A DNA stretch of 60,768 bases from positions 1 through 60,768 of the forward strand of contig JAGTXO010000090.1 in NCBI GenBank assembly GCA_019448385.1. Direction: 5' to 3'. Positions 26,351 through 49,250 of this stretch are shown in pieces. This DNA comes from Diacronema lutheri. Taxonomy: Eukaryota > Haptophyta > Pavlovophyceae > Pavlovales > Pavlovaceae. The translations under genes were made by a program, and so were the position numbers. The notes under the pieces are model-generated. The model was not told the origin of the DNA, ran no database searches, and was given only the letters and a program-made list of their open reading frames with translations. The first letter of the stretch is position 1. Every line of letters starts with the position of its first letter.

Positions 26351-26397
26351 CTATATACGGCGCGGTCCGGGCTGGTCCGGCCAGTGTAAGGCTGAGA

Positions 26398-26415
26398 GTA
26401 CGACCCGGGTCGTAC
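26398..26415. repeat. 18-bp perfect palindrome
   Basis: The sequence 'gtacgacccgggtcgtac' equals its own reverse complement. It lies just beyond the Fanzor fragment in a gene-poor stretch. Its function is unknown; it could be a recombination or binding site, or chance. Confidence 0.8.
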
Positions 26416-26892
26416 AATCAAGGGTTAAAAGCCAGCCAATGAGCGCTCGAGGGGTCGGGGCGAGGCTTATGACGAGCCTAGGACCGAGACACCCTCCTGA
26501 CCGGCCGATTTGGAGTAGAATTCGGGGTCGAGCGGGCGCGGCGGACGGAGGGCCCGAGCCGGGCCGACGGAGGGTCCGACCCCGGAATGCGGGCGACCGG
26601 AAGGGCTTGGGTGATTTACGCCTAGTAGAATAGAATGGCGGATTCCGGGGGGGCTCGCAACTGGCATCGCGCAAGCTGAGGCCCCCTGACTGACCGGACC
26701 GCGCCGAGTGCGCGTGCACCCCGTGGAGGGCGCGGCCAGTCGGACACTCTTCGCGACTGAGCTCGCCGCGGCATACCGTGCGCTGCGCCGGCGCGCTACT
26801 TGCCGTTGGCCGAGCTGCGGGTGTTGCGCACCGCCGTGTTGCGCAGCCAGCGGCTGGATGCGCCGGTGGCCGGAACCTTGGCGCGCTTTGGC

Positions 26893-27069
26893 TAAGCGAC
26901 CTCGGCCTGCACAGACTCGAACGCGTGCGTAAACTCGAGGCGTTGCAGGTGGCGAGCACGTGAGTTCGCGTAGGAGGTCTTGTACTCGGTGGCCTGACTG
27001 TCGACCGACGAGAGCTTGGGCGAGTTCGGCGGCACGTTGGCTCACTTGGGCTCGGTGCGCGGCTCTGCC

Positions 27070-27102
<33 letters not shown>

Positions 27103-28040: not shown

Positions 28041-28224
28041 CTGCGGCGCGCGGCGTGGCCTCGCGTGCCGTCACGAAGCCGCCTGCGCGCACTGCGGAGG
28101 CGGCGAGCGCGACGAGGGCGGGCGCGGACGAGGTGCTGAGCGGCGTCACGTACGCGCCCTCGCTCGCCGAGCTCGACGCCGCGGCGCTGACGATGCGCGC
28201 GGCGTACCACACCGACCGCCCCTG
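28021..28224 (+). CDS. Possible small or partial ORF ahead of the helicase relic
   Basis: A 67-residue plus-strand frame overlapping the start of the minus-strand relic. The end 'GVTYAPSLAELDAAALTMRA' reads like real protein. It could be an N-terminal exon of the helicase that was separated by the foldback element, or chance. No domain. Confidence 0.2.
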
Positions 28225-28353
28225 AGACGATGCGCGGCGCCCGCGGAGGACTGGTCCGTTGGCGCGCAAACCGTGGGCGAAAGGGCGCGAAGCCAACGGC
28301 CGTCCGCGCACGTTCAAACGCGCGCATACGGGTGGCATCCTCCCACCTTCGGC

Positions 28354-28666
28354 GCCGCTTTCTAAAAGGGTGTAGGGTGTAGGGTGTAGGATGCAAAACA
28401 AGCCCTCCCCACATTTGGGCCCGACGTCATTCCTTCTTCGAAGCCGTGACGTTACTCACATACGAGTACCTTTACTTAGTGTAGGATGTATCTATTCTCT
28501 AGGTATTTGCATAGTGTAGGGTGTAGGATACGTACGGTTATGAAAGTCCCATAGGGGGGAGAAGGAATGACGCTGTGACGAAAGAAGGAATGACGTCGGG
28601 CCCAAATGTGGGGAGGGCTTGTTTTGCATCCTACACCCTACACCCTACACCCTTTTAGAAAGCGGC
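28354..28666. mobile_element. Foldback (MITE-like) element with 85-bp perfect inverted arms
   Basis: Arms 28354-28438 and 28582-28666 are exact reverse complements over 85 bp and flank a 143-bp AT-rich centre. Near the outer end of each arm is a run of three heptamers ('gggtgta' type, 'ccctaca' on the other arm). Two more copies of the heptamer occur in the centre near 28515. No ORF is present. The element separates the unknown relic from the helicase relic. Its low GC differs sharply from the surroundings, suggesting transfer in. Confidence 0.85.
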
Positions 28667-28825
28667 GGCGCCTCGGAGCATGGCGGCTCGACAGCATGGC
28701 GCCTCGACAGCATGGCGTCGTCCAGCGTCACGCCGCGTCGTGGTCCTGCCGCTCCTCCGTGGCGCACGGATGGCGCTCCTCCGTGACGCAGCCGAACGAC
28801 GCCGCGGCGTCACGGCCCGGGCGCA

Positions 28826-30913
28826 GTCGCCATCCTGGACGCCACGGATGGCGAACCGGTCGACGAGATCCGGCACGAGGACGTCTGCGCCATCGCCACG
28901 CAGCTCGACTGCGTCTACACGGGGCTCACGGGCTCGATGTTTGGCACCAAGTGGAACGTGTGCGGGGTCATGCTCCCGAAGCGCGCCGAGCAGCGGCCGC
29001 AGCCCGGCTCGGACGCCTTCGCCTCGTACAGCGTGGCCGCCTGGGCCGACACGTTCGACTCCACGGGGCTGTACGTGCCCGACGAGCGCGAGCGCGCGGC
29101 GGCGCTCGCGGCGGTGGCCGGTCTGCGCACGGCGCGCGCGCCGGCCGGGCCGGGCGGGCGCGAGCTCGCGCGCGCGCAGGGCTACGATCGCGCCGAGCAG
29201 GCTGCGAGCGCGGCGGCGGCGCGCGCGGCGATGGCCGAGACCGGCCAGCAGCGCGCGCTCCACGGCGCGGTCGTCGACTCGGCGCTGCGCGGCGTGGGCG
29301 ACCGGCTGCACTTTTGCGACGCGCCGGGCGGCACGGGCAAGACGTTCGTCGAGCGCGCCATCATCGCCGCCGTGCGCGCGGATGGGCACGCGGTCGTCGT
29401 GTGCGCGTCCTCGGGCGTCGCCGCCACGCTGCTGCCCGACGGCCGCACCTTCCACTCGACCTTCAAGGTGCCCGTCGGCGCCGACTCGGACGGGCAAGCC
29501 GTTCAATGGCGTGCCGCGCTCCGAGCGCGGGCGCTCCGTGGCCGCCGCGGCGAATGATCGTGGGGGACGAGGCGCCGATGCAGAAGCGGGGCCGCCTCGA
29601 CTCGCTCGATCGGTGTTTGCGCGACGTGACGGGCGTCGACGAGCGCTTCGGCGGCAAGACGTTGCTGCTCGCCGGCGACTTTTGCCAGTGCTTGCCGGTG
29701 GTGCGGCGCGGCTCGCGCGCGCAGATCGTGCGCTCCTGCCTCGAGTACTCGGCATCGTGGCAGCACGATCGGCCGTACGCCTTGGTCGAGAACTCTCGCG
29801 CCTCGAACGCGGCGCGCGACACGGGCGACGCGCTCGGCGCGGGCGAGTGGGCGAAGCTGCCGCGCAGCCTCGGCGACGGCGCCTTTCCCGCGGCGGTGCC
29901 GCCTGCGGGGGCCATGCCCGGCGCATTCCCGCTCGATCCCGTGCAGCTGCCCGAGGCGTCTCGGCCTACCCGGCGGAGCTCGTAGCCACTCGCCTCCTCT
30001 CGCTCGGCGAGGGGCTGTGCAGCGGCACGCGGCTGGTCGTGCGCGGCGTGCGCGCCGGCGGCCGGCTGCTCGAGTGCGCGCGACCCGGCGCGGCCGCCGG
30101 GCGCGACAGCACCGTGCTCATCGCGCGCATCGGCCACCACTCGCCCGACGAGGGCACGTTCGCGTTTGCATGGCTGCACCGCCAGTTCCCGGTGCGGCCG
30201 GCGTAACAAGGCGCAGGGTCAAGCGCTCGGGTGCGCGGGCGTGTGGCTCGCCGAGCCGTGCTTCACGCACGGCCAGCTCTACGTGGCCGCTTCGCGCGTC
30301 GGGCACGCGTCGCGCATCCGCTTTGCGCTTGGCCCGGACCCTGTGACGCGCACCGTCGTCTTCAAAGAGGTGCTCCGCGCGGTCAGCGGTGGCGAGGCGG
30401 CGGCGGCGGCGGCGGCGTTCGCCGCGGCCGCCGTCGCCGCCGCGCGCGAATGCGCGGCGGCGGCGCGCGGTGGCGGCGGGCGCGGCGGGCGCGGCTCGGA
30501 CGGCGCGCGCGGCGCCGGCGGCGGGCGGCGCGCTGGCGGCGGGCGCGACGCCGGCGCGCGGTGCTGCCCAGCACCCGCCGGCGCGACGCCCGCCGCGCCG
30601 CTCGCGGCCGACGCGCAGCCGGCGGGTGCTCGCCAACACCGCGCGCCGCGCGACTGGCCCGCGTACCTGCGCGCCCTTCTAGGGCGCGCAGGGCGGCGCC
30701 AATGCGGCCGGCAAGCAGGGGCCTCAAGCCGGCGCGCTGCCCGACGCCGCGTGGGTCGCCGCCGCGCGCGTGCCGTCGGCGCTGCCGCCGTCCGGCGTCG
30801 CGCTCGCGCCGCTGCCGCAACCTCAGCCGCCGCCGCCGCCGCCGCCTGCCGGCAAGCAGGGCAAGCGCGCAGCGGCGGCGACGGCGGTGCGCGGCCCGGC
30901 GAGCAAGCGGTAG
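28826..30913 (+). pseudogene. Pif1/Helitron-type helicase, broken by indels and a deletion
   Basis: Superfamily 1B helicase motifs occur in order but in changing frames. Motif I is 'DAPGGTGKTF', then 'CASSGVAATLLPDGRTFHST' (Ia), 'MIVGDEAPMQKRGRLDSLDR' (motif II), 'LAGDFCQCLPVVRRGSR' (III). After a gap of perhaps 40 residues comes 'AYPAELVATRLLSL', then 'GLCSGTRLVVRGVR', 'LHRQFPVRPA', and 'NKAQGQALGCAGVWL' with 'FTHGQLYVAASRVG' (V/VI). This is the pattern of the Pif1-like helicases carried by Helitrons. Frame shifts near 29510 and 29545 are too close for introns. A tail ending 'GKRAAATAVRGPASKR' reaches a stop at 30913. No Rep (HUH) domain was found nearby. Confidence 0.75.
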
Positions 30914-32093
30914 CGGTGCCGCCGAGCCGGGGGCGGGCTCCGTGGGCGACGCGGCTTGGCCCGCCACTCGCACCACTCGCGCCGGGCGCGCACAACGCGC
31001 CGTGGTCCGCTGCGTGGCCGAGCGAAAATGCGGTCCTGGCTGCGGGGCGGATCCGACACGCCATGCGGGAGAGGCCGTACAGCGCGTGAGCTTGGGCCCG
31101 TGATTTATTACTCATGGATTTATTACTCATGCCATGGCGTCGCGCCACGATTACGCCCGTGGCCCCGGCCGCCAGCCTCGCGCCGCTACGCCGTGTCGTC
31201 GCGGCCGGCGCACACAGCGAACTGTGTGTCCGCGGCACATGCCCGGCTGCTCGCGAGCTGCAAGCTTGCCGAACTGCTCGCGCTAAAATGGCGCGTTGCG
31301 GGCGTGCCCGCGCACCGCGCGTATGTTCCGCGCGTTCCAGGCGCGCCGCGCCGCGCGCCGAAGCGGCGCGCGGCGCACGTGCGGCCGCGAGCCGAAGAGG
31401 GGCCGGCGCGACCGGCCGCGAGGCAGACGCAGACGCTCGGCGTGCCGGTCGACGCGTCGTCCAAATCCGCGTCGGGCGGATGCGCGCCTAGGCCGGCGCT
31501 GCGTGCAATCGGCGCGGGTCGCCGCCGCATGACGAAGCATGCTTCCATCCGGTGCTCGGCCACGCGCTCGGGCGTAACGTTCGCGCCTGTTCGGCCGAGG
31601 CGCACTCGCCGTCCCCTCGCGCCGGCAATGCGCGTGCGTGCCAGCACGCCGGCAGCGGAGGATGCCACGGCAGCGGCGAGCGGGTCCCCGCCGGTGTGCC
31701 GCTCGGCGCCCCGTCACGCGCAACGCGCGCGCCGCCCGCTGAACGCGCACAATTGCCTGGGCAAGATCGTCCCGCGCTCACGCCGCCGTCGCATCGTTCC
31801 ATGCATGGCGCCCGGCTCGTCCGTACCGCTTTCGGGCAGTGCCGCGACGCCCTTTTTCAAAGGCGGGTGCCGCGCTGATTCGTCATCGGCCACCATCCAT
31901 CTGGCCCTCTAAAGCCGGTTTGCGCGTGGGCGCCCGTCCGGTGCGAGAAGCGGCTCGCGTCCTCGCGCGGGGCGCCTCCGCGCCAGGCGCCCGGCGCGCG
32001 CTCGTCTTGCCGCGCCACCACGCTGATCTGCGCCCAACCCTCGCTCGCCTATTCCCCCGTCGTTTCTGCTGCGTAGCCCGCAACAGCGCGCGC
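30914..32093. other. Gap between helicase relic and giant gene
   Basis: No convincing gene on either strand; open frames here are Arg/Ala/Pro-rich and motif-free. At 31101-31130 an AT-rich 15-bp unit 'gatttattactcatg' is repeated twice in tandem. The promoter of the giant gene should lie at the right end. Confidence 0.4.
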
Positions 32094-35000
32094 ATGACGC
32101 GTGCACGGCGCAGCGCCTGGAGCAACTTCCGAGTCGTCGGCCGGCAGCCTGTGGGGGGCGCGTTCATCGGCCCGATGTGGCCGGTGAGAGTGCCCGACGT
32201 GCCGCGTGGTGAGCGCCTGCACGGCTCGCCGGGTTCGGCGCGTTCCCAGTCGGCCTCTCTCCGACTCGCCGTAAACCTTGCGTGCGCACCCCGCACACCC
32301 GGCGCTGCGCGGCGCGGCGCAGGCGTGAAAAACGAGGGCAACGCGTGCTACGTGAACGCCCTCGCGCAATCGCTCGTCGCCTTGAACGTGCTCCGTCCGA
32401 TGCCCCGCTCCGCTTCGCGCCGTGCGGGAAGAGTCGAGAAGGCGCTTTTTCGGGACTTTGGCACGCTGCTCGAGGACACCGAGGCGCCGGCACAGCTGTG
32501 TCTTGTGTCCGTCGTCGACGTCATCTTGGGCCGTGGCACGCGAGGGACGCAGCAGGACGCTGCTGAGTTCTTCCAGATGCTACTCGGCCGAGTGCCCGGG
32601 CTCGCTGCTGCCTTCGAAGACGACAGACGCGTAGTGCTCGAGCCGATCGCTGTGGCCTCGAGCGAGCGCGGTGAGGGCATCGCCATCCTCGTCAGCATTG
32701 GCGGCGATGCGGCGCGCACGCTCGCACACGCTCTGGGGGGCGTCGCTGGGCCGCCGCAGGGTGGCAGCCCGGACGCGTGCCGCTCGGACGTGCTCATGCC
32801 AGCCAGCATTGCCGTCGAGGTGCCGCGCACGACGCGCGGCAATGGCTCGCAGTGCAAGAACAAGCACGCGTTCGTGTGCGCGCCGCGGCTGCTACTCGGC
32901 GGGCGCGACTACCTCCTCGTCGCCGCCGTCGTGCACTTGGGCGAGGAGTCGACGAGCGGGCACCTTGTCGCCATCGTGCTCCGCAACGGGGCTTGGTTTC
33001 TGTGCGACGACGACAACGTGCGGCGGCGCGCACGGCCGCTTGGCGCCGCGACCGGCGGTTGATCGCAGCCGCAGCCGCCCCGTCCTCCCGCGCGGCACGC
33101 GCGCGTGGCCTGAAAGCTCGCGCCGCGCGCCTGCCGCACGCACGCGCGTTGCCCGCGCAGATGCACAACTTGTCTCAGTCCGACGCGCTGGCGTGGGCAA
33201 GTGGTGCGAGCATGCTCTTCTACAGCCGGCTCGACGCGGAACCGTTGGACCCGGCGCTGGGCTCAGCGTCACCGCCGTCGGCCGCATCGCCTGCGTGGCC
33301 GAGCTCGGCGCCCGACGCGCCGACCCTGTCGGCAGCCTGGTCGCGGGTGCGGCAGATGGCAGCGGTGCCAACAGATGCGACGATCGGCATCGCGGAGACG
33401 GCTGCAGACACCTCTGCGGCGGCGATCGGCCCAGCTGCGTGCGAGGCCCGCCAAGTTGTCTCCGCGACGCGCGCATTGCCAATGGCGGTGAGTGCCTCGC
33501 ACGCGCACGCCGTCCGCTGTCCACAGCGTGGCGCCCGGCGCTTGCGTTCGCGCCAGGTAAAGTTTGCGCGTATAGCGTGCAGCACCCTCACGCATCCCCT
33601 ACGCCTCCCGCCCGCCCGACCTCTTGCCCGCCGGCCGCGCGCAGGACCAGCGCACGCCAATTGTTGGGCGCGGCCAAATCTGGGCATGCGCAAATTTTGA
33701 GCCGGCAGCGGAGGGCGGGGATGCGCAGCACAACTGGCGCAAGCGCACGTGGTGCCCGCAGCACGAGCAGCGCGAGCAGCGCGAGCAGCGCGAGCAGCGC
33801 GAGCAGCGCGAGCAGCGCGAGCAGCGCGAGCAGCGCGAGCAGCGCGTGCAGCGCGTGCAGCGCGAGCAGCGCGAGCAGCGCGAGCAGCCCTGGCAGCCAG
33901 CGCGGCCAGGCCTCGGCGCGGGCGCTGGCGTTCGGCCCGCTGCTCTGCCGCCGAGCCATCCGCGCGCCAGCATGCGCGCGAGCAACCGCTTCGAGCCGCT
34001 CTTGTTGGCCGAGGCGGACGTGCCCGCCACCGAGCCCGCCGCCGCCCAGCCCGCCGCCCAGCCCGCCGCCGAGCCCGCCGCCAAGCCAGCCGCTGCCAAG
34101 CCCACCGCCGAGCCCGCCGCCCAGTCCACGGCCCAGCCTCCCACCGTGCCTGACGCCAAGCCAGCCGACCAGCCCGCCGTCAAATGCGCTGCCGCCAAGC
34201 GCGCTGACGACCGCATTGCTGCCGCTGAGGTAGGCGCCGTCGCCGCCACGCTTGCCGCCGCCACCGAGCCTGGCGGCGTTGCCGAGCTCGCCGCCGCCGC
34301 CGACGAGGGCTGCAGGGCGCGTGCCGACGCGCTCGCCAAGCGCGAGACCCGCCGCGCGCTCCACCGCGAGCAGCTTTTTCGCGAGGACAAGCGCGCGGCC
34401 GGCCGCCTGATCGAGCAGTGCGCGCTGGGCTCTGCGGACGATGCAGCGCGCGCGCGCGCCCTGCTCGAGCGCGTCAAGGCGCGTGGCCACGCGCTGCCTC
34501 CGCACCTGCTGCGGTCGCTGCGCGACCTCGCGTCGCCGCGGCTCGCGCTCGCCGCTGAGGCGGCGGGCGTGCTCGCCGCGTCCGAGATGGGCGAGGCGGA
34601 CGCACCTGCGGAGGCGCGCGCGCTACTCATGCACGCCGAGGCCGTGGGCGCCCACCTGCCCGCGCACACAGAGCTCGCGCTGCGCCGCGCCTGCATCCCC
34701 ACCGCCGAGCAGGCGGAGCTGCTCGCGACTGCGCGCGAGCTGCTCGCGCCGCGCGACCCCGAAGGCTCGGTGGCTCCGGCGGGCGCGCGTGCCGAGTGCG
34801 ACGGCGCCGCGCTCGGCACTCGCGCGCGCGAGCTCCTCTCGCGACTCGACGAGGCGCACCTCGACGTGCAGCCCTGCATTGCGCGGCAACTGCGCCGGCT
34901 CGCCGCCACCGAGCCAGACGCAAGTTCGAGCGCTGCGCTCGCCGCCACGCCCGGCACCGCCGGTCGCGCGGCCGCCGAGCCGCGGCGCGCGTGGCGCCCG

Positions 35001-36939
35001 CGCGGGTGGCGTCTCGCGGTAGGCGCAAAGGGTGCGCGCGCGCGCGCGCGCGCGCCGCGGCTGCTCCGCTCGACACGGCGCCGCCCGCGGCGGCCGGCGC
35101 CGTCCCGCCGCTCGAGCCGCAGCCCGAGCGCCGTGCAGCCGACGCCGCGGCCGCCGCAGCGGCGCCGGCGGCCGGCGACGACGGCGTGGCACGCGCGCTC
35201 GCAGCCGCAGCGCGCGGCGACGGCCTCGACGGCGTCGATGGCGCCGACGACCTCGTTTGCGCGCCGTGCGACCGAGGCTGCGCGCACGCACGCGACGGCG
35301 GCTGCTGCGAGCCTGCCGCGCGCAGCTCGCCCGACCAGTGCCCGCGCGCACCGCCGCGGCGCGCACGGCGGGCGGCAAAGCGCGCGCGCGACCGGCTGCG
35401 GAGATCAATCGACAGGTCAGAGCGGGCTGTCGGCCGCCGATTGCGTGGCGGCGACGCGCGCCGCGAGCGCAAGCGCAGGTGCGCGACGGGCGGCCAGCAC
35501 GCACCGCAGCCGCTCCGCCGCGCGAGTCGCAGCCCGCCGTCGCGCACCGATCGGCCCTCGGCCGAGCATGCCGCCGAGCCTGCCGCCGAGCCCGACAGCC
35601 CCCACCGCCGCCCGTGTGCCGGTGCCGCCGTCGCCGTCGCCACTGTCCGGTGCGCCGTCGGCATCTTCGCGAGTGTCGTCGCCGCCTCTGCCGTCCGGGC
35701 CGCCATTGCTCCGGCCGCTCGCCCGTCTGCAGCCACCGCCTTTTGGCTCGTCGCCGTGTGCTCGGCCGCCGCATGGGCCGCCTTCGCCTCCGCCGCCCGC
35801 CCGACCGCCGCCTTGGCCGCGCCGCAGCCTGCCACGCAATCGTCGGCCGCCGAGCCCACCGCCGCCGCGCCAGCCCCCGCCCAGCCCGCCGCTGCCGAGC
35901 CAGCCGCTGCCCAGCCCGCCGCGGCCGAGCCCGCCGTGGCGCAGCGCGACGTCCAGTCCGCCGCCCCGGCGCTGCTCGCGTGGGCGGGCGACGCGGCTGC
36001 GCTCCGGCTGGCCGATGCCGCCGCGCGCGCCGGCATCCCGCAGGCAGAGGTGGACTGCATTGCGGGCGGCGACATGCTCGCCTCCACTGTGGACGCTTGC
36101 TGCGAGGTCGTGCTGCGCGTGCACGGGCAGGCCGGCGAAGGGCGCGTCTGCCACGTACCGCTTGCCGCTCAGCCCGCGGTGTTCCAGGACGGCGCCGAGC
36201 GCGCCGCGCTGCTGCACCGCCTGCACAGCGAGGCGACGACGCAGGCGGTCATCGGCATGTGGAGCCCGCCGGGCGGGCGCGGCGGTGCGGGCAGTGACGA
36301 TGGCACGCCGCCCGCCTCCGGCCATTTCACCGCGTTGCGCCTCGTGCGCGTCGCGCGCGCGGGCGAGCATCGCTACGACGCGGTGCTTGTCGACACGCTC
36401 GCGTCGCCGAGCAGGCAGGCGCTCAAGCGTGCCAGGTCGATAACCGCCACGCTGCACGCGGCGGGCCTCGACGTCTTGCCCGTGCGCCGCGCGCGGCTGC
36501 TCGACAACGCGGCGCAGCGTGGCGCGACGTGCGGCCTCGCCGTGGTGGGCGCGCTCAACGACGCCGCGCTCGCTGCGGCGGGCGGTGCATCCGCGCCGCG
36601 CACGTTCAGCGTGGCGGACATGTACGCTGTTGGCGAGCACCTCCGCGTCGCGTTGACTGGCGCGGTCAGCGGGCGTGCGCCGAGCGGCGCCTGCGCCGGG
36701 GCGGGCGCGGTGCGCGGCGGGGGCAGCCGCGATCGCGCTGCCGAAGCGCCGCGGCAGACGCGCGGCGCCAAGGCCGCCGCAGACGCCGCCGCCGCTGCCG
36801 CCGTTCCGCCGCCGCCGCCACCTCCGCCGCCCGCGCTGGGCGCCGCCGCCGCCACCACCACCGCCGCTGCCGCTGCTGCCGCCGCCGTGGCCGCGCCGCC
36901 ACCGCCGCCACCGCCGCCGCGTGCCGGCGACGAGGGCGA

Positions 36940-36990
<51 letters not shown>

Positions 36991-39900
36991 GCGCACGTTC
37001 TTGAGGCTCGCGCCCAGGGCGCGCGCGGCCGCCTCGGCGCGTGAGGCGTTGCGCGCCGCGTGTGCGCGCGCGGACGCGGCGGCGTCGTCACACGCGTCGG
37101 CGCCGCACGCGCCCGCCGGTGCGCGCCGCCGGCGGCGCGCGGGCGCAGGCGAGCTGGCGCTCGCGGCTGCGCGCGCGCTCGCCTCGACGGAGCACGGCGA
37201 TTTGACGGACGACGCGCTCGAGGCCGCCATCGAGCAGGAGCTGGGCGACGAGCGCGGCCAACTGCTGCTGTGCACGCGGGGCGCAGCGGCGCAAAGGCCC
37301 GCGCTTTGCCGGCTCCTGAAGCACGCGTGCGCGTCGGCGCGCGCGGCGAAGCGCGCGCAATTCACGGTGTTCGTCGTGCGCGCGCCCACGCGCGGCGAGC
37401 GGGGGGGCGCCGCCGCGACGCGCGTGGACTCGGTGGTCGAGCTGTCGTGCGCGCTGCACGAGAAGGCGGGCGCGCTCGGCGGCCTCCAGAGCGTCTGTGT
37501 GCGTGGCTTTGCCCTCGAGCGCCGCCGGACACTCGACGGTGGCGCCGAGGCCGGCGCGTCCGCCATCGGCCAGGACGAGCAGGTCGAGGCAGAGGCGGGC
37601 GAGGCGTGCGTCGCCGGCGTGACGATGGCCAAGCAGCTGCGTCAGTTTGCCGAGCAAGCTGCCCGCGACGACGTGCTCTTCCGCGTCGCCGTGTCCGAGG
37701 CCGACGCCCACGCCCGGCTGGCGCGCGTTGCGGGTGACGATGTCGGCGCGTACAGCGTCGTGCTCGCAGTCGCCGGGCTCGTCTGGCTGGCCAAGGCCGA
37801 CGAGGTTGCGCCGGCGGCCGCCCAGTCCGCCGCCGCGCCGCCCGCCGCCCCGCCTGCTGCCGCCACGTCCGCCGACGCCGAGCGCGACGCCTCGCCTTCC
37901 GACCGCCTGCGCGCGCTGACGCTCGCCGTGCGAGTCGCGCTCGCGCGCGGCGTGCTGCGCCACCTCCTCGCCGACGCGTCGCCGGGCGCGTCCGCGACCG
38001 CTGGCGGTAGTTGCGCGACGCCCGTCGAGGCGGCCGCGTCCGACGCCGCGCCGCCCGCCACGGGCGTCGTGACGAGTGGCGTCGCGGCGGGCGCTGTGGC
38101 GGCCGCACCGGCTGCTGCGGGCGGTGCGACGGCGGGTGCATCGCCCATCGCGCGGCCGGCGAAGCGCGCGCGGCGCACGCTCACCGCCGCTCCAGCCGCC
38201 TCGGCCGTTGCGGCCGCTGGAGGCGCACGCGCTGGCGCACGCGGCGCGGCCGGCGCGCCTCGCGCGCGCGCCGCGCGCGCGCCGGCCGAGTACGTCTGGC
38301 TTGCCATCGCGCGCCGGATGCTGGCGGCGCGACACGCGGCGGCCGCGGGCGGCGACTTTGTCGCGTCGTGCGTCGCCGCGATGCAGGCCGAGTACGGCGA
38401 CGGCTGTGCCGTCGTCGTCGGCGACGCGCCTGGTGACGCCTTGGTCGAGGCTGCGGCGGCGGCGCTGCTCGAGGGCAAGCACGCGGCGGTGAGCCTCGGC
38501 TGCGTCGACCGGCCGGCGGTGCTCGTCGTGCAGCGCGCCGTGGATGCGCCCACGTCGCGCGTGCACGGGTGGTGCGCGCACGCGGCGGGCGCCGCCGAGT
38601 TTGACGAGGGCGCCGCGCGCGACGTGTTCAACGCGATCGTCGAGCGCGCGTGGGCGCTGCGTCCGGACCCGGCCGACGGCAGCCCGCCGCCCACGCGCAC
38701 GTGGGAGGTCGGGCGCATCGCTGGCGACGCGCCCGACCAGGCGGGCGTGGCCGCGCTGCGCGTGCTCTACGCGCTCGTCGCGGCGCACGGCCGCTACCGC
38801 TCGGCCGCCGCGCTCTTTGGCGCGCTCGCGCAGCTGCACGCGCCCGACGCCGCCGGCGCGCGCGCGGAGGTCGTCGCGGCGGCGTGCGCGGTGCCGCCCG
38901 GCGCGCGGCCGGGCGCCGCGCCGGCGGCCGCGCGGGACGACGCGAGGGAGCGCGCATGGGAGGGCGCTCAGATCGCCGCGCTCGCCGTCGGCGCGGACGC
39001 TGCGCGCAGGCGTGTCGCGCCCGTGCGCGCGCTCGTCGACGCGCTCGGCACGCCACCGACCTCGGCGATCACGGGCGGGCCGGCGGTCCGGCTCGCGGGC
39101 GCGGGCGACGGCGGCCACGGTGTACGGTGGGTGGGCGAGCAGGCGGCGACGCCCGCCGAGCAGCTGCCGAGGGAGCTGCTGCGCGCCTACCACGAGGCGG
39201 TGCTGTGCGTCACGCCCGGCAGCCTCCAGCTCGGCCCGGCGGCGCTCGACGCGGTCACGCGGCCGCGCGAAAACGACACGCTGGAAGGCCTCCTCGCGCG
39301 CGTCAGCTGGCAGTGCGGCGCGAGGGCGAGCACGTGCGCCATGCTCGCCACGTTTTCCGAGCAGGCGGGCACCGGCTCGCGCGTCGCGCTCAAGGCCCTC
39401 CGCACGAGCTCCGACCTGGCCGGGCTGACGGCGGCTGCGGTCGGGCAGCAGGCGCCGCAGACGCCGCCGCCGCCGCTGCTCGTAATGCTCGGCCGCTGCC
39501 CCAGCCCGCTCGTCGGCGGCGGCCTCTTCCCGCCCGACCGCGCGACGGGCGAGCCGGCGGTGCACGCGGCGACGTCCGAGCTCGCCGTCGAGCTGCTGCG
39601 CGACGCGCGCGCGCTGGCCGGCACGGACGGGCGGCTCGTCGTGCTGTGCCTCGAGGCGTCCAACCCGCTCTGGTTCTGCCCCAAGGTGCGCGAGCTCGAG
39701 CTGCCGCGGACGCGGTCGGACGGCGTGCGCGCGTCCGGCTGCACCTGCCCTGCGACGTGCAGCGATGCGCGCGGCGCGGCGGGTGGCGCTGCCCGCGGCG
39801 CATCGACGCGGCCGGCGGCGCGCGCGATCAACAAGGCGGTGCTCGACCACTTCGTCGCGCTTTTCGGCCGCGAGGGCTTCGCGACCTTTGAGTTTGCGGG

Positions 39901-42900
39901 CGGCGGCGAGGCGAGCTGGCTGTGCGACAGCGCGGCCGGCACGACGACCGTCGCGGCGTGCGCGTCGCTCCCGCCGCGCATGGGCGATGGGCAGCTGGCC
40001 ATCCGGCGGCACACGCTCGGCACGGGCGCCGGCGCGCCGGCGCACGCCGTCGTCTCGCTCCGCGTCGCGCACGTGAGCCACGCCATCCGCCGCGCGGCGG
40101 ACGACGGCGGCGCGCGCGCCGAGCGGATGGCGCGCGCCGCGCGCGCGTTTTGCGATGTGGCGGCCGCGCTGCGCGTCGACGCGATCCTGGCGGAGGTGCC
40201 CGAGGACCGCCCGACGGGCACGCCCTTCCTTGGCGGGCTGCTCGAGTTTTGGAACAAACGCCACGGGAGCTCGACGGCGCCAGCCACGCTCGCGCTCGGA
40301 GACGTGCGCGAGGTGGCCAAGCGGACGGCCGACGCAGCGGCCGGCCGAGCGGACGAGGCCCCTGCGGCTGGCCGTCCGCAGGTCGCGGCGCGCGCGTGCG
40401 CTGGCGCGATTGGCGGCGGCGCGGGCGCGGCGGGCGCCTCGGACGCTGCGCCCCGTGCACTGGCGGGCGCGTCGGGTGCGCGCACGGACGGCGGCCCTGC
40501 CGACGCACCGCGCCAGCTGGAGAGCCGCTACGGCGAGGCGAGCAAGCTCGACCTACCCCAAGATTCCACTACGGGCTGCGTCCTCGACGCTCGCGAGGCC
40601 CAGGACCGCGCGCGCGTGCCTGCTGCGCCCGACGGCACAGCGCTGCGCCGCGTGCTCGACGCCGTCGGCGCGGGCGCGCCCGCGCAGCGCAGCCCGCGCT
40701 GGCACGACGAGCGATGGGAGGAGGTCACGGGCAGCAAGGTTGGCGACGTCGTGAACGACAACGCCGGCGTCGCGCACGAGACGCTCACCGACGAGTACGT
40801 GCACCGGCGGCGGCGCGAGGTGCGGACCAAGGCGACGACCGCGGGCATCCTCGGCGAGGCCGTCGCGCTGCGCAAGCTGGCGGCCGCGTACGGCATCACC
40901 GTCGTGTGCAACCTGCCGATGGTGCGTGCGGACCCGCACGACAAGAGCGCGCCGTTCGCCTTCTCGCCGGACGGGCTCGCCATCCTCCCCGAAGACAACG
41001 AGCAGGTCCTCGTCGAGGTGAAGACGCTCACCAAGGCGGACGCCACGGCGCACGAGGACGGGCCGCCGCAGCCGCACCGCGATCAGCTGCAGCTCGGCAT
41101 GCACGTCCTCGGCGTGCGCAAAGCGCTCTACGTGCAGTACCTCAGGCACGAGGACCGGATCGTCGTGCACGTCGTGACGCGCGGCGCCGGCTGGCTTGCA
41201 TTCGCGCAGCCGAGGGTGCAGGCCTTCTGGGCGCGCGTCGTCGAGCGGCGCGCGCGGCTCGAGCGCGCGCGCGCCGACCACCCGGCTGCGAGCCGGCGGC
41301 ACCGGCGGCAGCAGACGCCGGCCGGGCCGCCGCTCGTGCTCGCGCTGGACGGGCGCATCCCCGCCGCGCGCGCCGCCGCGCTGCACGCCGTCGCGCACGG
41401 CACCGCGAGCGCGGCGGCGGTGGCGGCGACGGCGGCGACGGGCGACGCGACGGCGTTGCAAGACGCGATCGCGGCGCTGCGCGCGCCCGTCGGCAATGCG
41501 GCGATCGCCAGCGCAGCGCGTGCGGAGCGCGCGGCCGTCGAGCGGGCGATCGCGTACCTCGGGCAGCCGGCGGGCGACGCCGCCGCCCGCGGCACGGCCG
41601 AGGCGGCCGAGGAGGAGAGGACGGTCGACGCCGACATCTGCGCGTTGCTGCACCAGCTCGGCGCGAGCGTGGCGCACGTGCACGTCGAGGACGCGGATTG
41701 CGTCACGCGTGAGCACTGGGGCGAGGCGGGGCTCGCTGCAGCGGGCGACCCGTCGAGCGCCCCCGCCATTTCGAGCGTCATCGTCGCGCACATCGTGCGC
41801 CTCGCCGGCTTTGGCGTCGAGCTCCCGCAGTCGATTCGCGTCGCCCCCAGCACGGCCGACTGGCACGAGGGCTGGCTCGACGTGCAGTGCGTGCTGCTGC
41901 GCACGCGCCGGCGCGGGCGGCGCGACGACGACTTTGTGGCCGTCGTCAGGCGCGGTGGGCGCTGGTTTGCGTGCGAGCCCGGCCGCGCGCGGCGGCTGCA
42001 GTGGCGGTCGGTCCTGCGCCGCGCGCGCGGCGGCGTCGACGGGACCGGCGAGGAGGCGTTCGCGGTCGTCTACGTGCGGCGCGGCGACGCGGCCGGCGAC
42101 GCGGCTGGCGACGCGCAGGCCGAACGGGCGCGCGGCGGGCGCGCGCGCAGGCGCACGCGCGGCGGCACGCGCAAGCGCAAGCGCGGCGCCTCCGCCGGGC
42201 TCGAGGCGGCCGCGCCCGCCGGCGCGCCGGCTGCCGCGCCCGCCGGCGCGCCGGCGGGCGCTGCTCACCGCCCGCCCGCCATGCGCGCGACGGTCGCCGC
42301 GCGCACCACGCGCTCTGTGACCGACGCGCGGCACTCGGCGCCTGCCGCCACGGTTGCACCTGTCTTCGACTGGCGCGCCGGCCGCCCGCCCCCCGCCGCT
42401 CGAGCCCGCCACCCGCGGCCGCGTGGGCGCGCGCCACCGGGCAAGGCCTGGGACAGCGTCTCGGGTGCGTGGGCGGACAAGCCGACTGGTGCTGCCGTCG
42501 CCGCCGCGCCGCCGCCGCTGCCGCCCGCCGCCGCGCCGCCGCCCACCGCCGCGCCGCCGCCCGCCGCCGCGCCGCCGCCCGCCGTCGCGCCGCCGCCCGC
42601 CGCCGCGCCGCCGCCGCCGCCGCCACCGGCGGCGCTCGGCCGCCGGCAGCACGTCGGCGCGGGCGGCAGCGCGGCGGGCCGGCGGCTCGCGGCCATCGCA
42701 CGGCGGCAGCGCGGCGTGCGCGCGCCGCCGCCCGCCGCGCGCTTCCTCGCCACGCTGCCGCCACCGCCACGCGACGGCCTCGCGCGCACGAGCAAGCAGG
42801 CGCGCGCGAGGCGCAACGCGGACGGACGGCCGGCGCACGCGCGCGCGGCCAACGCGCGCGCCTTCTACCGCGGCGTGGAGCTCGGCGTGCACGCGACGCG

Positions 42901-45900
42901 CGCCATCGTCGACGCGCGCCACGCCGACCTGCCGCAGGCCGTCTTCGTGGCGGAGGCGCGGGCGATCGTCGCGCGCTCCGCCGGCGGCGGCGCGCTGCTC
43001 GCGCCGGACGACGTGCGCGACCTGTGCGACGCGCAGACGGACGCCGATCGCGCTGCGATCTGGGCGTCGGTGGGCGCGCACGAGGCGACGCGCATCTTCG
43101 CGCTCGTCACGCGCAACGCGAGCTTGGCGGGCGCGGCGCTGCTCGTGCTGCACACGCCGGCGGGCGCGCCGGCGCGCGCGCTCGGGCTCCTGGCGACGCG
43201 CTCGCGCGCGCCGTCGACGGGCGCGCCGCGCGACGCGCACAGGGCGCTGGTGCAGCGGTTGGACGTGCTGATGGACGCGATCGCCGCGGCGCGAGGCGCG
43301 TCGCCGCTCGAGCTCGAGCTCGCGCTCGCGCCCGAGCCGCAGAGCGCGTGCAACGCGCGTGCGGCCGCGCTGCTCTGCCTGCAGGCCGTCGCGGACGCGA
43401 GCGGCCGTCCCGCCGCTGAGGACGCGCTGGCCGCGCTCGACGACGCGCGCGGCATCGACCGGCACTGCCACGCCGTCCGGCAGCAGATCGAGGCGAAGCT
43501 CGCGTGGCGGCGCGCCGACGGCGCCGTCGGCGTTGACGGCGCCGACGGCGCGCCCGCGCTCGCGCCTGCCGCCGCACCGCCGGCGTGCGCGCCGGCGCAC
43601 GCTGCCGGCGAGGCGGCGGTCGACCAGGCGATCGTCACGCGGGTGCGCGACGCGCTGCGCGCGTGGGCGACGACTGGCACCGCGCCCAGCGCGGCGGTGC
43701 TCGACGACGCCTGCGCCGCGTACACGGCCCGCGCACGCGCGCGCAAGGACGCGCGCACGGCGCTGGGCCCGACGCGCGCGGCCGAGCTGCTCGCCGCGGC
43801 CGCGCGCGGCGGAGCCGACGGGGCGGATGCCGCGCGCGCGCTGCTCGGCGGCACGCCGCGCCTGCTCGTCGTGCTCCTCTGCGTGCCCGTCGCCGCGCCG
43901 TCCGGCGAGCCGCCGCGCCCGGTCGGGCTGCTCGTCGCCGACCGGCCGACGGACGACTCGCGCCCGGCCGCGCTCGTGCGCTACGACTTTGCGCCGCTCG
44001 ACGCGGACGTGGCCGTCGCGGTCGGCGCGCATGCCGTCGCGCTGGCCAGTGCGATCTGGCCGCTGCTCGCGGCCGAGGGGGAGCCGCGGCCATCGCCCGT
44101 CGTGCGCTCGCAGCCGCGCGGCGGCGACGATGGCGCGCGTGCGCTCGCAACGTTCGCGTGCCTCGACGCGCTGATGACCGCCAGCGTCGGCGCGCACGGC
44201 CTCGCGGGCGGCGCGGGCATGCTGCCCGCGCTGGTCGCGCGAGGCGCCGCGGCCGCCCAGCGCGAGCGGCAGCTGCGCGCGGCCGCCGAGAGGCTGGGCG
44301 GCACGGTCGCTGGGTGGCCGGACACGGGCGCGAGCGCGGCGGGCGCGAGCGTCGACGAGGAGGCGCGCACGTACGAGGTCGAGGCGGTCGTCGACGAGCG
44401 CCGCAAGGCGGGCAAGAAGGTGACGTTCCAGTTCCGGATCAGGTGGCGGGGCTACGACGAGAGCGCCGACACGTGGGAGCCTGAGGCCAACGTGAGCAGC
44501 GACCTCGTCGCCCAGTTCCGCAAGACGCGCGACGAGCAGAAGCGGCGCGCGGGCGTATCGGGCAGCGGCAGCGGCGGCGCGGGCGCGGCGTCGGCATTGG
44601 CGTCGGCGCCGCTTCGCGCGCACGGCGAGTCGGGCGCCGCGGGCAAGCGCGCCGCGGCGGGTGCCGCCGCGAGCGCGCGCGACGCCGCGGGCGCGCGCGC
44701 GCCGAGCGTTCCCCGCGCGCGCGGCGTCGAGCGCGCGCGCGTGGACGAGCCCGCTGCGCCGAGCGCGCGCGCCGCCGGCGGCGCGACGGCGCGCACGCGC
44801 GTCAGCGTGCTCCCGGGCTTCGTGGTCAAGCGCTCGACGCTCAACGCGGGGCCGCAGGCGGTGACGGCGCAGCCCGGTGCGCGGAAGGAGCTGCGGCGCA
44901 TCGCGGCGGCCGTGCACAGGCTCACGACACAGGCGTACCGCGTCATCAACAAGGTGGTGCGCGACGAGGCTGCGGTGGCGAGCGCGCAGGCCGTCGGCGC
45001 GGCGTCGGGCGGCCCGTCGACCAGCGTGCACACGTCGACCACGATGGACAAGGGAACCGTCCGTGCGATCTTCTCGGCCATCGGCTGGCACAAGGACGAG
45101 AGCACGTACGGTGCAGCGCCCCGAGGCAAGCCCGCCGAGCAAGCCGCCGCGCAGACCAAGGCGGCGACGGCGCGCGCCGTCGGCGAGATGGCCGAGGGCG
45201 TCCAGCCCGTCTGCGCGGTGGGCCTCACGGAGATCCTCGAGGCGGAGGCGACGCAGGTGTCCACCGCGTGCCTGATGCATCCATCGCGCGTCGTGAACGG
45301 GCTGCTCCGCGACGTCGTCCGCGCGGCAGTCGAGCGCGACGAGGCGCTCGTCGCGCTGCCCGAGATGCAGCGAAACGCGCGCGTGCGCGAGCTGTGCGAG
45401 CGGCTGCTGCGCGGCGACGTGGAGGGCGCGCGCGTCGGCTGCCCCGCCGCGCTCGACCGCCACCTGCCCGACATGGTCCTCCACAAGATCGACTACAAGT
45501 GCACGCCCACGAAAAGGTGGAACTACGACCGGCACACGACGCGCTACTTCCTCGTGCAGATCCGCACCCTGCAGCACGTGGCCGAGGGGCAGGCGCTGCT
45601 CTGCCGGCTCGCGCGCCTGTACACGCAGCTCACCGACCGGCCGCCGCGGTACAATGTGGCGCCGCTGCGCACGCACAATGTGCGCGCGAGGCGTGGCTGC
45701 CGCTGCCGCCGCCGAGCGCCCAAGCGCGCGCGCCGCCGCCGTGCGCGCCGCCCCGCGGCCAGGTTGGTCACGCGCCCGCGCGCTCGCGCGCCGCGCGCTG
45801 CGCGCAGGTGCCGCGCAACGTGCGCCTCGCCGCGAGCGCCATCTGGGTGACGCTTTCGGATGACGAGCGCAAGGAGCTGCGCGCGCGGCTCAAGGCGCTG

Positions 45901-47532
45901 GACCTGCGCGACCACGATGGCGAGCCGATCAAGTGGACAGGCACAAACGGCAACACCCCGCCGATGTCGGACGTGCGCGTCAGGTACGCGGTCTTTGCGA
46001 CGCGCTTCGACATCTCCAACCGCGTCTTCGACTACGCCGGGCGCGAGCGGCCGCCGGCCGATCTGCCGTGGCACGCGCGGCGCTCGTGGGTTGGCCTCGC
46101 GCCGCTGCCGCGCGTGCCGCTCCCGGGCCGGCAGCCCGTCAAGTCGGTGGTGACAGATGGCGTCGCCGTGCACGCCGTCGGGACCGTCCTCGTGCCGAAG
46201 GCGCAGGCGCCGGCCGGCGGCTCGGGCGTCCTGCACCGCTGGCGCCGGCCGGACGGGCGCATCGCCGTCGCGCTCGGCTCCGAGCTGCGGCGGGCGATCG
46301 ACGTCGAGGCGGCGGTCGTCGTCGCGGCCGACCCGAACATGGGCAACATCACCACCTACTCTGCGCACGTCGGGCGGGCGGCCGTCTGGCGGCAGTTCAC
46401 GCAGCGCGCGCGCGCGCGCGCCGCGGGCTTTGCGCGCGAGACGGCCAAGACCAACGCGGCGCGGCGGCGCGTGCGCAAGGACGGGCGCGGCGAGGAGTTC
46501 AGCGTGGAGGCGGACGAGGCGCGGCTTGGCGAGGCGCACAGCGCCAAGGTGCTCGACGCGGGCAAATACATCGCCTTCCACCGCGAGAGCGCGCGGGTGC
46601 GCGAGCGCGCCGCCGAGCACGTGTACGACGCGCCGGCGCGCCGGAAGGAGCGCTGGCGGCGCGACAGCGGCGGGCGGTCCAACGCGGCGCGCGTCGCCGA
46701 GGCGCTCATCGCGGCGCACTGTGTCGACGGCGTGACGCGCGACCGGCTGCTCGTGTGCGTGGGCAAGTGGCTGCGCGACCACAAGGGCGCGCAGCCCAAG
46801 GGCGCGCCGCCCGCCTTCCAGGTGGGGCTGCTGCGCGAGCTGCGGCGGCGCGGCGTCGCGGCCGTCTTCGTGCCCGAGCCGTACACGTCGATGCACTGCT
46901 CGATGCCGCGGCTCGCCAAGGGCGGCAGGCTGCAGCGCTGCGGCGCGGAGCTCGCGCAGAACCCGCGCCTGCCCGTGGCAAAGGGCGGCACGCGCACGGT
47001 GCACGCGCTCGTCATCTGCCCGGCGTGCAACGGCGGCAAGAAGCCCGTGCACCGCGACTACAACGCCGCGCGCAACATCTTCTACGACGTGCACGACATG
47101 GCGGCGCACGCGGCCGGGCGCGACACCACGTCGACGCCTGAGCGCTTTGCCCTCGTGCTCGCCTGGTGGGCGCGCGGCGAGGTGTGGGAGCGTGAGGAGC
47201 GCATGGTGCACGGCGAGGGCGACGACTGCGACGACGAGTGCGACGGCGACGACGAGGGCGACGACGAGGGCGACGACGACGACGACGACGATGGCAGCGG
47301 CGACGGCGGCGGCGGCGAGGGCGACGGCGACGGCGACGGCGACGGAGGCGGCGGCGGCGACGACGACGATGACGGCGGGGGAGGCGGCGGCGGCGACGGC
47401 GGTGGCGACGACGGCGGCGGGCGCGGCGGCGGTGGCGGCGGCGGCTCTCGCGCCCGCACCCCCGCCCGCGGAGCTGCCAGCGCCAGTGCCGGCGGCGGCA
47501 GCGCGCGCGGGCCGAAGCGCGGCCGGCGTTGA
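32094..47532 (+). CDS. Giant USP-Ulp1-like-YqaJ-chromodomain-Fanzor polyprotein
   Basis: Five exons, all introns GT-AG and phase 0: 32094-33017, 33161-33556, 33645-35018, 35123-45679 and 45808-47532, giving 4,991 residues. Domains in order: USP deubiquitinase with Cys box 'NEGNACYVNALAQSL' (C85), 'QQDAAEFFQ' and His box 'GHLVAIVLRNGAWFLCDDDN' (H290), ending 'SMLFYSRL'. A Ulp1/adenain-like H1299-D1322-Q1363-C1368 set ('GHFTALRL', 'VLVDTL', 'QRGATCGLAVVGAL'). YqaJ exonuclease: 'RSPRWHDERWEEVTGS', D2848 in 'SPDG', E2863-x-K2865, 'QLQLGMHVLG'. Chromodomain about 3982-4040 ('FRIRWRGYDESADTWEPE'). Fanzor: D4592 ('AADPNMGN'), E4774 ('VPEPYTSMHC'), D4834 ('HRDYNAARNI') with Cys ribbon, acidic linker and basic end 'GPKRGRR'. 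The start codon, the acceptor at 35123 and the Ulp1 call are the least certain points. The gene may instead be two. Confidence 0.7.
33018..33160 (+). other. Inferred intron 1 of the giant gene
   Basis: Donor 'gacaac|gtgcgg', acceptor 'ccgcgcag|atgcac', phase 0. Splicing joins 'WFLCDDDN' to 'MHNLSQSDALAWASGASMLF', restoring the normal USP C-terminal order (acidic His-box tail, then '.LFY.R'). Confidence 0.7.
33557..33644 (+). other. Inferred intron 2 of the giant gene
   Basis: Donor 'gccag|gtaaag' is near-canonical and the acceptor is 'gcgcgcag|gaccag', 88 bp, phase 0. Splicing carries the USP exon into the frame that encodes 'DQRTPIVGRGQIWACANFEP' and the EQR repeat. Confidence 0.6.
33764..33892. 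repeat. 9-bp tandem repeat coding for (Glu-Gln-Arg)n
   Basis: About fourteen copies of 'gagcagcgc' or close variants. In the inferred giant frame it gives 'EQREQREQR', a charged helical linker between the USP and the next region. Confidence 0.85.
35019..35122 (+). other. Inferred intron 3 of the giant gene
   Basis: The frame must change between about 35019 and 35140. Donor 'ctcgcg|gtaggc' with acceptor 'gccgcag|cccgag' gives a 104-bp phase-0 intron; 'gtgcag' at 35137 is an alternative acceptor. The stretch contains a (GC)n run, so a length error in that run is the competing explanation. Confidence 0.5.
45680..45807 (+). other. Inferred intron 4 of the giant gene
   Basis: Donor 'cacaat|gtgcgc', acceptor 'gcgcgcag|gtgccg', 128 bp, phase 0. 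It joins 'RYNVAPLRTHN' to 'VPRNVRLAASAIWVTL', keeping the Fanzor domain continuous. The left-edge Fanzor reads straight through the equivalent point without an intron. Confidence 0.8.
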
Positions 47533-47929
47533 CGCACGGCCGAGCCGCGCAGCGGTCGACGCTTTGCGGGCTCTGCCCAGGTCGCGCGCGGCTGGCGACG
47601 CGTGCCGCGCGCGGCACGACCGTGCACGCCGCCACCCGTGGCCGAGCGCGCCGCACCAGCCGGCCCGCTCCAACCGCCGTGCGGATCACGGACGCTCGCT
47701 ACGGCTCGTCGGCGCGCGTCACCTGCGCCGGCGGCCACGGCGCCGTCTGCTCCGGCCTCGTCGCGAGCAGCCCGACCGCTGCTCGCCGCCCGCACGCCGC
47801 CGCAGCAACGCTGCGCGTCGTGCTCCCCCGCTCGCCAAACGCGAAGAGCTCCCTCACAAGGACGTCCTTCCGAACGGCCCGCGCTGCACTCGGGGCGCGA
47901 TCGTGCCCCTGATCGGATTTGGCTTGACC
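47533..47929. other. Spacer between giant gene and Fanzor pseudogene
   Basis: No gene supported. This is where a Fanzor guide RNA (3'-end derived in TnpB/Fanzor systems) would be expected if the element makes one; I see no clear hairpin by eye. Confidence 0.35.
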
Positions 47930-49250
47930 ATCTATACGTTGCAGCCACACGTCGCATTGCGTTGCCCGCCACGCGCCACGGCCGCGCGGCAAGCTGCGCG
48001 CGTACGGGTGCAGCGTGCCTTCGCACCGCTTCAGCCGCAGAGGCTGCCCCGACGCGTCGTCTGCCGTCGTCGGCGGGAGCGCCCGCGCCCGCGTCGGCGG
48101 CGGGCGCCGCGCTCGCATCGGACGCGTTCCGCACCTCGAACAGCTCCGAGCAGCACCTAGAACTGAGTGGCCTCGGGCACGAGCGTCGTCGCGACGTTGC
48201 ACCGACGCAGCGCGCAGAGCAGGCCAACGCCGAGCGCGAGCGGCTTCTCGCGCACGCAGCCGCCGTTGAGCACGAGCCGCTGCTCGGGCCGCAGCCCTCG
48301 GTCGATCGCGTGCACGCGCACGATCCGCGCTGCCGCGCGCGCGCACGCGCGCCGGTTTGCGCCGCCGCGCCGCTTGCGCGCGCGCAGGCGTGCACGCGCG
48401 CCGTGCACGGGCAGCGTGGCCCGTCGCACGCGCTTGTGCGCGCGCGCGAAGGCGAGCTGCTCGTCCAGGCCTTGCGCGGTACGCCCGCCATGCGCCGCGC
48501 CGAGCGCCGCCTCGAGCACGGCCGCCATTGGCGGAGCGCGCGGCGCACCCGGCCGCGCGCCGCTTAGCCCCAGCGGGCGAGCGCGCGAGTTCGCGTTGGC
48601 GAGCGGCCGTTGCCGCGCGGCCTCGATCTTGCCGCGCTCGCGCGCGTGCCCCTCGCGCGCGGCGCGCTCGCGCTGCGTGAGGCAGACCGAGATGGGCTCG
48701 AGCCCTCAACCGCCGGACGCGTACGTCATGAAAGTCGCCAATGCCGGGTTCCATCCCACGTCAATCGCCTCGGCCAGCTGGGCAGGCGTCGCCTCGTCGA
48801 ACGTGACGTCGAGCCCTCAACCGCTGGACGCGTACGTCACGAAAGTCGCCAATGCCGGGCGACACTGTGGCGCCGACGTACGTGTGCCGCTGCTCCGCCG
48901 TCACGTCGCTGCGGGCAGCTGCTCTCCTGCCCACCGCCACGCCCGCTCGTCGAGGTTGAACAAGTGGCCGTAGATCAGCACCTTGACACGCGGATCGCTG
49001 GTGAAGGTGCGCGGGTCGATGAGCGGCACGCCGTCGGCCGTCGGCAGCCTGCGCACCTGATCGCAGACGAAGGCCGTGTCGTCCTCGTCGAGCAGGAGAT
49101 AATGGTCCCGCGCGCACATATGGACAAAACGCTGCTGCATACCCTCGCGCTGGAGGCAGAGCGCGTGCGGCGGCGGCTCTCCGCTGATGTGCGTAAAGAG
49201 CATCGCGAGGCGCGTGAGCAGCGACGCACGCGCCCATCGCCGCCTTGTCC
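47930..49250 (-). pseudogene. Fanzor pseudogene of the left-edge lineage
   Basis: Minus strand, tail-to-tail with the giant gene. It begins with the same 'QPDKAAMGA' as the left-edge copy, then after a frame shift 'HISGEPPPHALCLQREGMQQ', 'YLLLDEDDTAFVCDQVRRL' and 'NLDERAWRWAGEQLP'. The RuvC-I region is damaged: a deletion precedes it, a local ~60-bp duplication (48700-48760 and 48810-48865) is present, and the Asp codon is replaced ('VEPG' for 'VDPG'). Further on, 'RVRRATLPVHGARARLRARK' and 'CALRRCNVATTLVPEA' survive, but the zinc-ribbon and RuvC-III end are lost after 'RATQCD'. Not functional. Confidence 0.8.

Follow-up and report, generated by a model that had tools for sequence, protein, structure and literature searches.

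Related elements

Eukaryotic transposons are known to carry Fanzors, YqaJ exonucleases and proteases singly: Helitrons have Fanzors (PMC3627910), ISL2EU has YqaJ (PMC4482050) and Helentrons have proteases (PMC4067079). Here we describe a repeated mobile element of the haptophyte Diacronema lutheri in which a RecE/YqaJ-type nuclease, a chromodomain and a Fanzor would be joined through one giant open frame. The fusion and its scale are new as far as we have seen. One copy lies on contig JAGTXO010000090.1 (C103), the whole stretch of which (60,768 b) was analysed and is called the window below.

Among the closest described systems are CRe-1, -2 and -3 of Chlamydomonas, Fanzor1-bearing Helitrons that their authors hold to be non-autonomous; 5′-truncated copies with target site duplications (TSDs) have been described for CRe elements (PMC3627910). 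The D. lutheri element is like them in having a Fanzor inside the element, no clear TSD at full-length insertions and a high copy number, but they are reported with a multi-exon Fanzor only, whereas in D. lutheri the Fanzor would form one protein with a chromodomain and a RecE/YqaJ nuclease. Chlamydomonas Helitron2 is reported to have TTTT as its target (PMC3627910), unlike the D. lutheri insertions, which are without TTTT and where asymmetrical terminal inverted repeats (ATIRs) and a terminal hairpin do not rise above chance. Helentrons and proto-Helentrons (PMC4067079) have, as here, a PIF1-type helicase with extra enzymes, theirs comprising an endonuclease and an OTU-type cysteine protease among others, and a further likeness is that no target-site modification is reported there. 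Helentrons differ in having Rep-Hel and T-rich targets; in D. lutheri no Rep was found, the protease is of USP type, and Fanzor and YqaJ take the place of the nuclease. The ISL2EU group of DNA transposons also encodes a YqaJ exonuclease, but on a separate open reading frame (ORF), and it has a DDE transposase, terminal inverted repeats and TSDs (PMC4482050). Giant eukaryotic transposons share the size of tens of kilobases and the accessory domains, including ubiquitination-related ones; unlike here, a Fanzor-YqaJ-chromodomain fusion was not found in the accessible text of that source, which has no mention of YqaJ or Ulp1 (PMC6431247).

Literature queries joining Fanzor with YqaJ, chromodomain, ubiquitin, Helitron or haptophyte gave no fusion in titles or abstracts among the matches listed, subscription papers being outside their scope. 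The D. lutheri NIVA-4/92 genome paper gives 22.9% repeats, and the words 'Helitron' and 'transposable' do not occur in its main text (PMC8379373).

Extent and copies of the element

A preliminary description of the window had assigned positions 32094–47532 to a mobile element. Searches of the D. lutheri genome (43.49 Mb, 103 contigs) bore out the mobile character, in that the DNA is repeated, with sharp ends and many near-identical copies. The bounds had to be moved: the real copy is larger, occupying 26351–47937 on the + strand (21.6 kb). Comparison of the window with the copy on contig C71 gave the first sign of common breakpoints. The window copy starts with CTATATACGGCGCGG and ends with GACCATCTATAC, without a clear TSD, on the basis of common 5′ and 3′ breakpoints and reading of the flanks. 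With 26000–31600 as query, long matches were found (27 scored), most of them starting within a few bases of 26351.

Exact terminal patterns occur genome-wide at 155 5′ ends and 202 3′ ends, against none for reversed-pattern controls. Pairing was carried out for 79 of the 155 5′ ends, on contigs C1–C46, leaving out the other 76 and the 3′ ends not on these contigs. It yielded 45 copies totalling 1.23 Mb, or 2.8% of the genome. The main size class, of ~31 kb, has 22 copies at 30.5–32.5 kb; 10 are at 21.4–21.6 kb, the class of the window copy, five at 26 kb, six at 29 kb, and two are shorter. Multiplying all 155 5′ ends by the median of 29.4 kb would give ~10% of the genome, as an extrapolation only. 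The YqaJ segment matched at 98–100% identity in all 150 scored places (best 150 of 234 candidates), and the Fanzor exon at 99–100% in 101 places (best 101 of 411 candidates scored). The USP region was scored in 40 places, 30 of them full-length at 97–100% and 10 partial or more diverged at 87–98%, besides fragments. The element is giant, 21.6–31 kb in its main forms, has been recently amplified, and was mobile in the past.

Contig starts were read for 19 of the 103 contigs, chosen for copies near many of their ends, and eight of these (C1, C5, C6, C12, C26, C29, C83 and C91) begin at or within ~10 bases of the element 3′ end. A telomere-targeted element was considered and rejected. Because C9 starts with a telomere-like repeat, CCCTACCCCTA, and other contigs start inside the element, we read the contig starts at the element as assembly breaks at a repeat; the element seems to limit the D. 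lutheri assembly.

The giant open frame and its modules

The largest coding feature is an open frame at 34559–45850 (+), 3,763 codons from stop to stop, whose coding use ends at an intron, at 45679. Base composition predicts 36 stops over this length, and first-order Markov simulations, of which 60 were made, never exceeded 1,386 codons without a stop, so that the frame is far beyond chance. Long frames are the rule among the 150 YqaJ places, with at least 4000 aa in 110, more than 5000 in seven and less than 2500 in 16. The copy on C11 has a related frame of 6,136 codons (first 2,964 read), while the C71 copy has four extra bases in a GC repeat, after which a frame of 4,518 codons opens.

USP, a YqaJ/RecE-type nuclease, a chromodomain and a Fanzor RuvC half had been proposed on the + strand, and profile matches were found for each where it had been placed. 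The YqaJ/lambda-exonuclease/RecE-like nuclease (40700–41107, +) matches the RecE-like PHROG_434 at 3.8e-17. Pfam YqaJ reaches 1.4e-4 and 22.6 bits (cut-off 22) with the cut-out segment and 0.016, below cut-off, in the whole frame; TIGR03033 gives 1.2e-5, far below its cut-off. The D and the E-x-K of the nuclease core are both present, the latter as E-V-K, and we take them to be the catalytic residues. One homologue, P0004, was found in the protein collection at 99%; it represents no independent species, because it is labelled Pavlova lutheri. The chromodomain (44372–44524, +) is of HP1/CDY type (Pfam 5.4e-12; HP1/CDY chains to 8.3e-10) and has Y, W and Y at positions that presumably form the methyl-lysine cage. 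The Ulp1-like module fared differently. Its putative stretch (36101–36700, +) has an H...D...Q..C pattern by motif reading, and the stretch scanned gave no Pfam or PHROGs match to a Ulp1/C48 fold and, in PDB, an unrelated chance-level match (E 1.3). Scans of other stretches of the frame with Pfam and PHROGs left large parts matching nothing.

The Fanzor and its intron

A phase-0 GT-AG intron of 128 bp (45680–45807, +) would separate the N-terminal half of the Fanzor, at the end of the giant frame, from its RuvC half. The diverged relatives P0002 and P0003 both begin at the first residue of the next exon, and a 2-bp indel of the C71 copy falls within the intron. Joining of the giant frame to the RuvC half through this intron is therefore a well-supported prediction from sequence.

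The catalytic exon (45808–47532, +) carries the D (in ADPNMGN), the E, a Cys pattern and RD, followed by an acidic/Gly tail. Its RuvC end matches PF07282 at 4.3e-6, above cut-off, while NCBIfam TnpB gives only 0.023, below cut-off. We compared it with Fanzor motif rules (DPG, relocated Glu) drawn from PMC10711439 and with further Fanzor tests from PMC3627910. The RuvC-I Asp is present; its motif is DPN in the window, DTG in P0002 and DPG only in P0003. The relocated Glu stands six residues before the first zinc-finger Cys in the window (E-PYTSMH-C) and in P0002 (E-AYTSMH-C); P0003 ends earlier. The pattern D-x(125-275)-[TS][TS]xx, C4 zinc finger and RD is found, with 184 residues from D to TS and eight from the last Cys to RD; the first zinc knuckle is a wide C-x15-C, not CxxC. 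No significant PDB relative was found with the single sequence, and a four-sequence profile gave Cas12f1 as best match at 0.013.

A search of 5.8 billion proteins, with 8,000 candidates scored, gave three homologues of the exon (E ≤ 0.001). One has 98% identity; the other two are diverged, at 46% and 39% by BLASTP (50% and 45% in alignment). P0002, 50% identical in alignment, keeps the D, E, Cys and RD motifs. Viral relatives were not found at the sensitivity of the search, and a search of bacterial and archaeal contigs was without result. The noncoding 3′ end of the element (47533–47937, +) is a possible guide-RNA region; its fold is not better than shuffles (z −0.9), and it has no Rfam match.

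The helicase

A decayed PIF1/Helitron-type helicase lies at 28851–30400 (+); it has frame changes and lacks ~300 nt that are present in the C71 copy. The C71 helicase matches Pfam PIF1 and Pif1_2B and still has one frame change; the C11 copy has the same split into two frames. The best PDB relative is Helraiser at 4e-25 (1.4e-7 for the first part), against 6e-6 for cellular PIF1. No helicase homologue was found in the protein collection at E ≤ 0.001 among 8,000 candidates scored. Ratios of nonsynonymous to synonymous substitution (dN/dS) over this stretch are 0.69–1.38 for the three + frames. A simple GT-AG intron as cause of the frame change was rejected, candidate lengths having been counted by eye on the alignment. 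The element had also been called self-contained, a claim we do not uphold because no transposase was found in it; the helicase, moreover, is frameshifted in the copies read.

Upstream of the helicase and nested in the element is a 99% inverted repeat (28350–28438/28582–28670) with GTGTAGGG tandem motifs; the stretch around it has the opposite orientation in the C71 and C11 copies. Coding-looking frame pieces with frame changes (e.g. NVSELLPDEIFGDELLV) occur on the minus strand at 26467–28414 and have no Pfam match.

The USP gene

A USP-type deubiquitinase ORF at 32094–33062 (+) matches UCH (PF00443) at 7.3e-15, and its Cys, QDAAEF and His boxes align to USP46. The Cys and His are kept in two subfamilies, and the USP is genuine as judged by these sequence features; it is probably a separate gene or exon. 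Downstream, within 33520–35952, an Ala/Pro-rich stretch with repeats (33576–34900, +) shows coding phase in the USP frame, with putative splice links to its neighbours; 33520–35952 has no match above 300 bp in the long C71 copy.

Insertion sites and ends

Flank counts are based on 31 5′ and 39 3′ flanks. Four rows were dropped: L012 for its shortened 3′ end, L007 because of a contig end, L028 for a 5′ end reading CTATTTA, and L029 because it is no element end. No base preference was found in the last 8 bases of the 31 5′ flanks. The 3′ flanks begin with a C in 38 of 39, which we took as element sequence, followed by a weak G in 23 of 39 and otherwise no preference. Among 19 flank pairs tested for a TSD the longest common end was 2 bp, once in either register. 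CTATA occurs at both element ends in direct orientation. A paralogous segment on the minus strand at ~640–1690 of the window represents an empty site without TSD; because it has only 80% identity and contains indels, the exact target is unreadable from it.

Host segments are themselves duplicated within the window at 80–85% identity, one pair being 640–1690 (−) and the element flanks 26169–26350 and 47946–48732, and the other 25351–25981 and about 57444–58041. One of the two pairs is interrupted by the element.

At 12 places (C4:40355, C8:74191, C34:400185, C44:183847, C69:1150949, C85:524865 and six more) no more than 12 bp separate the element 5′ end from the 3′ end of a different repeat, AAGCGNCNTNAGT, against none in the control. 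Six of these 5′ ends directly follow TTAGT, a terminus motif with three occurrences in 183 kb of DNA. The neighbour repeat was head to tail with another copy of itself in two of six flanks read. Its TTAG|T end resembles what we take to be the canonical Helitron 3′ end; this hints at Helitron company and proves nothing.

Interpretation

Our best explanation, in which we place about even confidence, is a giant Helitron-derived element, moved in trans, that carries a Fanzor-chromodomain-exonuclease polyprotein with a cut-and-resect accessory role. The element would descend from a Helitron-like rolling-circle transposon, its own Rep having been lost or never present, so that it would now depend on movement in trans. 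The giant polyprotein would be an accessory machine for copying or retention: the chromodomain may hold it on methylated-histone chromatin, the Fanzor would make RNA-guided cuts in DNA, and resection of the break by the RecE/YqaJ-type nuclease would make a resident copy usable as template. A stronger version makes the polyprotein itself the copying machine: its Fanzor would make an RNA-guided break, the linked RecE-type exonuclease would resect it for copying from a template, and the HP1-like chromodomain would steer the process, without a classical transposase; this strikes us as quite improbable.

The role of Fanzors for their carrier transposons is, to our knowledge, an open question in the field. 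Here a Fanzor is predicted to be joined to a RecE/YqaJ exonuclease and a chromodomain in more than 100 near-identical copies, and most of those scored keep open frames that are thousands of codons long. If our reading of the message holds, the protein would couple a guided nuclease to an exonuclease in nature and would, as far as we know, be among the larger transposon proteins. A direct test would be feasible in this aquaculture alga, asking whether guided cutting and resection copy the element and whether chromatin binding directs it.

In favour of our best explanation we count the exact ends and paired copies, the YqaJ segments at 98–100% identity, mostly in long frames, the closeness of the RepHel-type helicase to Helraiser, the flanks without base preference or a match above 2 bp, the 5′ ends beside the TTAGT terminus and the Fanzor motifs kept in P0002. 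Several observations weigh against a Helitron origin or a working role for the polyprotein. Searches for an HUH Rep gave three loose HxH-type matches and those for a tyrosine recombinase four loose-pattern matches, all of them antisense or in frames other than those of the giant protein and the helicase; a paired-Tyr pattern had no match. Helitron_like_N was not found in the frames scanned, which do not include every frame of 26351–28850. Its single genome match, L041 (C63:35738–36019), has coding pieces in several frames beside it and is a candidate relic of a Rep partner. The fixed host bases of Helitron relatives (TTTT, T-rich) were not found at the insertions. The terminal inverted repeat was equalled by 155 of 400 controls and the terminal hairpin by 236–417 of 1000 random 60-mers, neither above chance; hairpin and ATIR, present in form, were accordingly rejected as proof of a Helitron. 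No motif like a transposon-adjacent motif (TAM) adjoins the 5′ end in 31 flanks, which argues against a homing role; positions −10 and −15 have 0.35 and 0.33 bits (30 5′ flanks), unexplained. Between the window and C71 copies, which represent two subfamilies, the giant frame has a dN/dS of 0.53, lower than the 1.09 and 1.23 of the two remaining + frames, which speaks for our reading; the value comes from 329 codons of a single pair of copies, however, and a − strand frame matches it at 0.54. The USP gives 1.07 in its own frame, above the 0.65 of + frame p=2 and the 0.61 of a − frame, again from one pair, in which either lineage may be drifting and the C71 partner may itself be decaying.

These data bear also on the other explanations. 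The element could be a different transposon or an integrated virus-like element, for instance a Crypton-like one whose tyrosine recombinase is concealed within the giant frame, and its helicase a captured Helitron fragment. CTATA at both ends in direct orientation, the lack of a visible TSD, the large parts of the giant frame that match nothing and the occurrence of Crypton recombinases among Fanzor1 partners (PMC10711439) would all fit. However, no tyrosine or serine recombinase matched in Pfam, NCBIfam or PHROGs in the stretches scanned, the loose pattern matches lie outside the giant frame, and viral relatives were not seen at the sensitivity used; in five unoccupied repeats the TTAGT is followed by bases other than CTATA, and a common target core was accordingly not seen. 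We regard this as a minority possibility of some weight. It is also conceivable that the modules are captured cargo without a role, the element depending on nothing but its ends and a helper enzyme, and that open frames persist through recent amplification. Helitrons are known for gene capture (PMC6431247), and copies 98–100% identical have had little time for decay. Against this stand a stop-free frame of thousands of codons beside a broken helicase, the giant-frame dN/dS of 0.53 and the fact that P0002, at 50% identity, retains the catalytic motifs of the Fanzor, and we think it unlikely.

The preliminary description saw the complete machinery of the element in one 4,991-residue USP-Ulp1-YqaJ-chromodomain-Fanzor protein, spliced at four phase-0 GT-AG introns. 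All the modules except Ulp1 have profile support and are on the same strand, and in the 21.6-kb subfamily the USP frame and the second same-frame coding stretch are close together. Only part of the joining holds. YqaJ, the chromodomain and the N-terminal half of the Fanzor share one frame, with the catalytic half one intron away, and this last intron (45680–45807) is supported; the other introns were not confirmed, since enumeration of chains of three phase-0 GT-AG introns produced 462 alternatives, and in none of them did the introns add up to the 463 bp needed for 4,991 residues. Nor was the USP shown to be joined. In the C71 copy 3.3 kb with little codon-phase signal separate it from the giant frame and, because of this distance and of the absence of constraint on the USP in the one comparison with a possibly decaying partner, the single protein is unsupported. 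We judge it very doubtful as the element's machinery; our best guess is that the USP is a neighbouring gene or an occasional extra, not an essential part.

Elsewhere in the window

Outside the element, 81-bp tandem repeats occupy 19930–22077, with similar 81-bp arrays at 5157–5975, 24002–24904 and 52986–53728. Minus-strand frames over two of these other arrays gave no match, while a + frame over the array at 20998–21984 encodes ankyrin repeats (Ank_4 1.2e-31).

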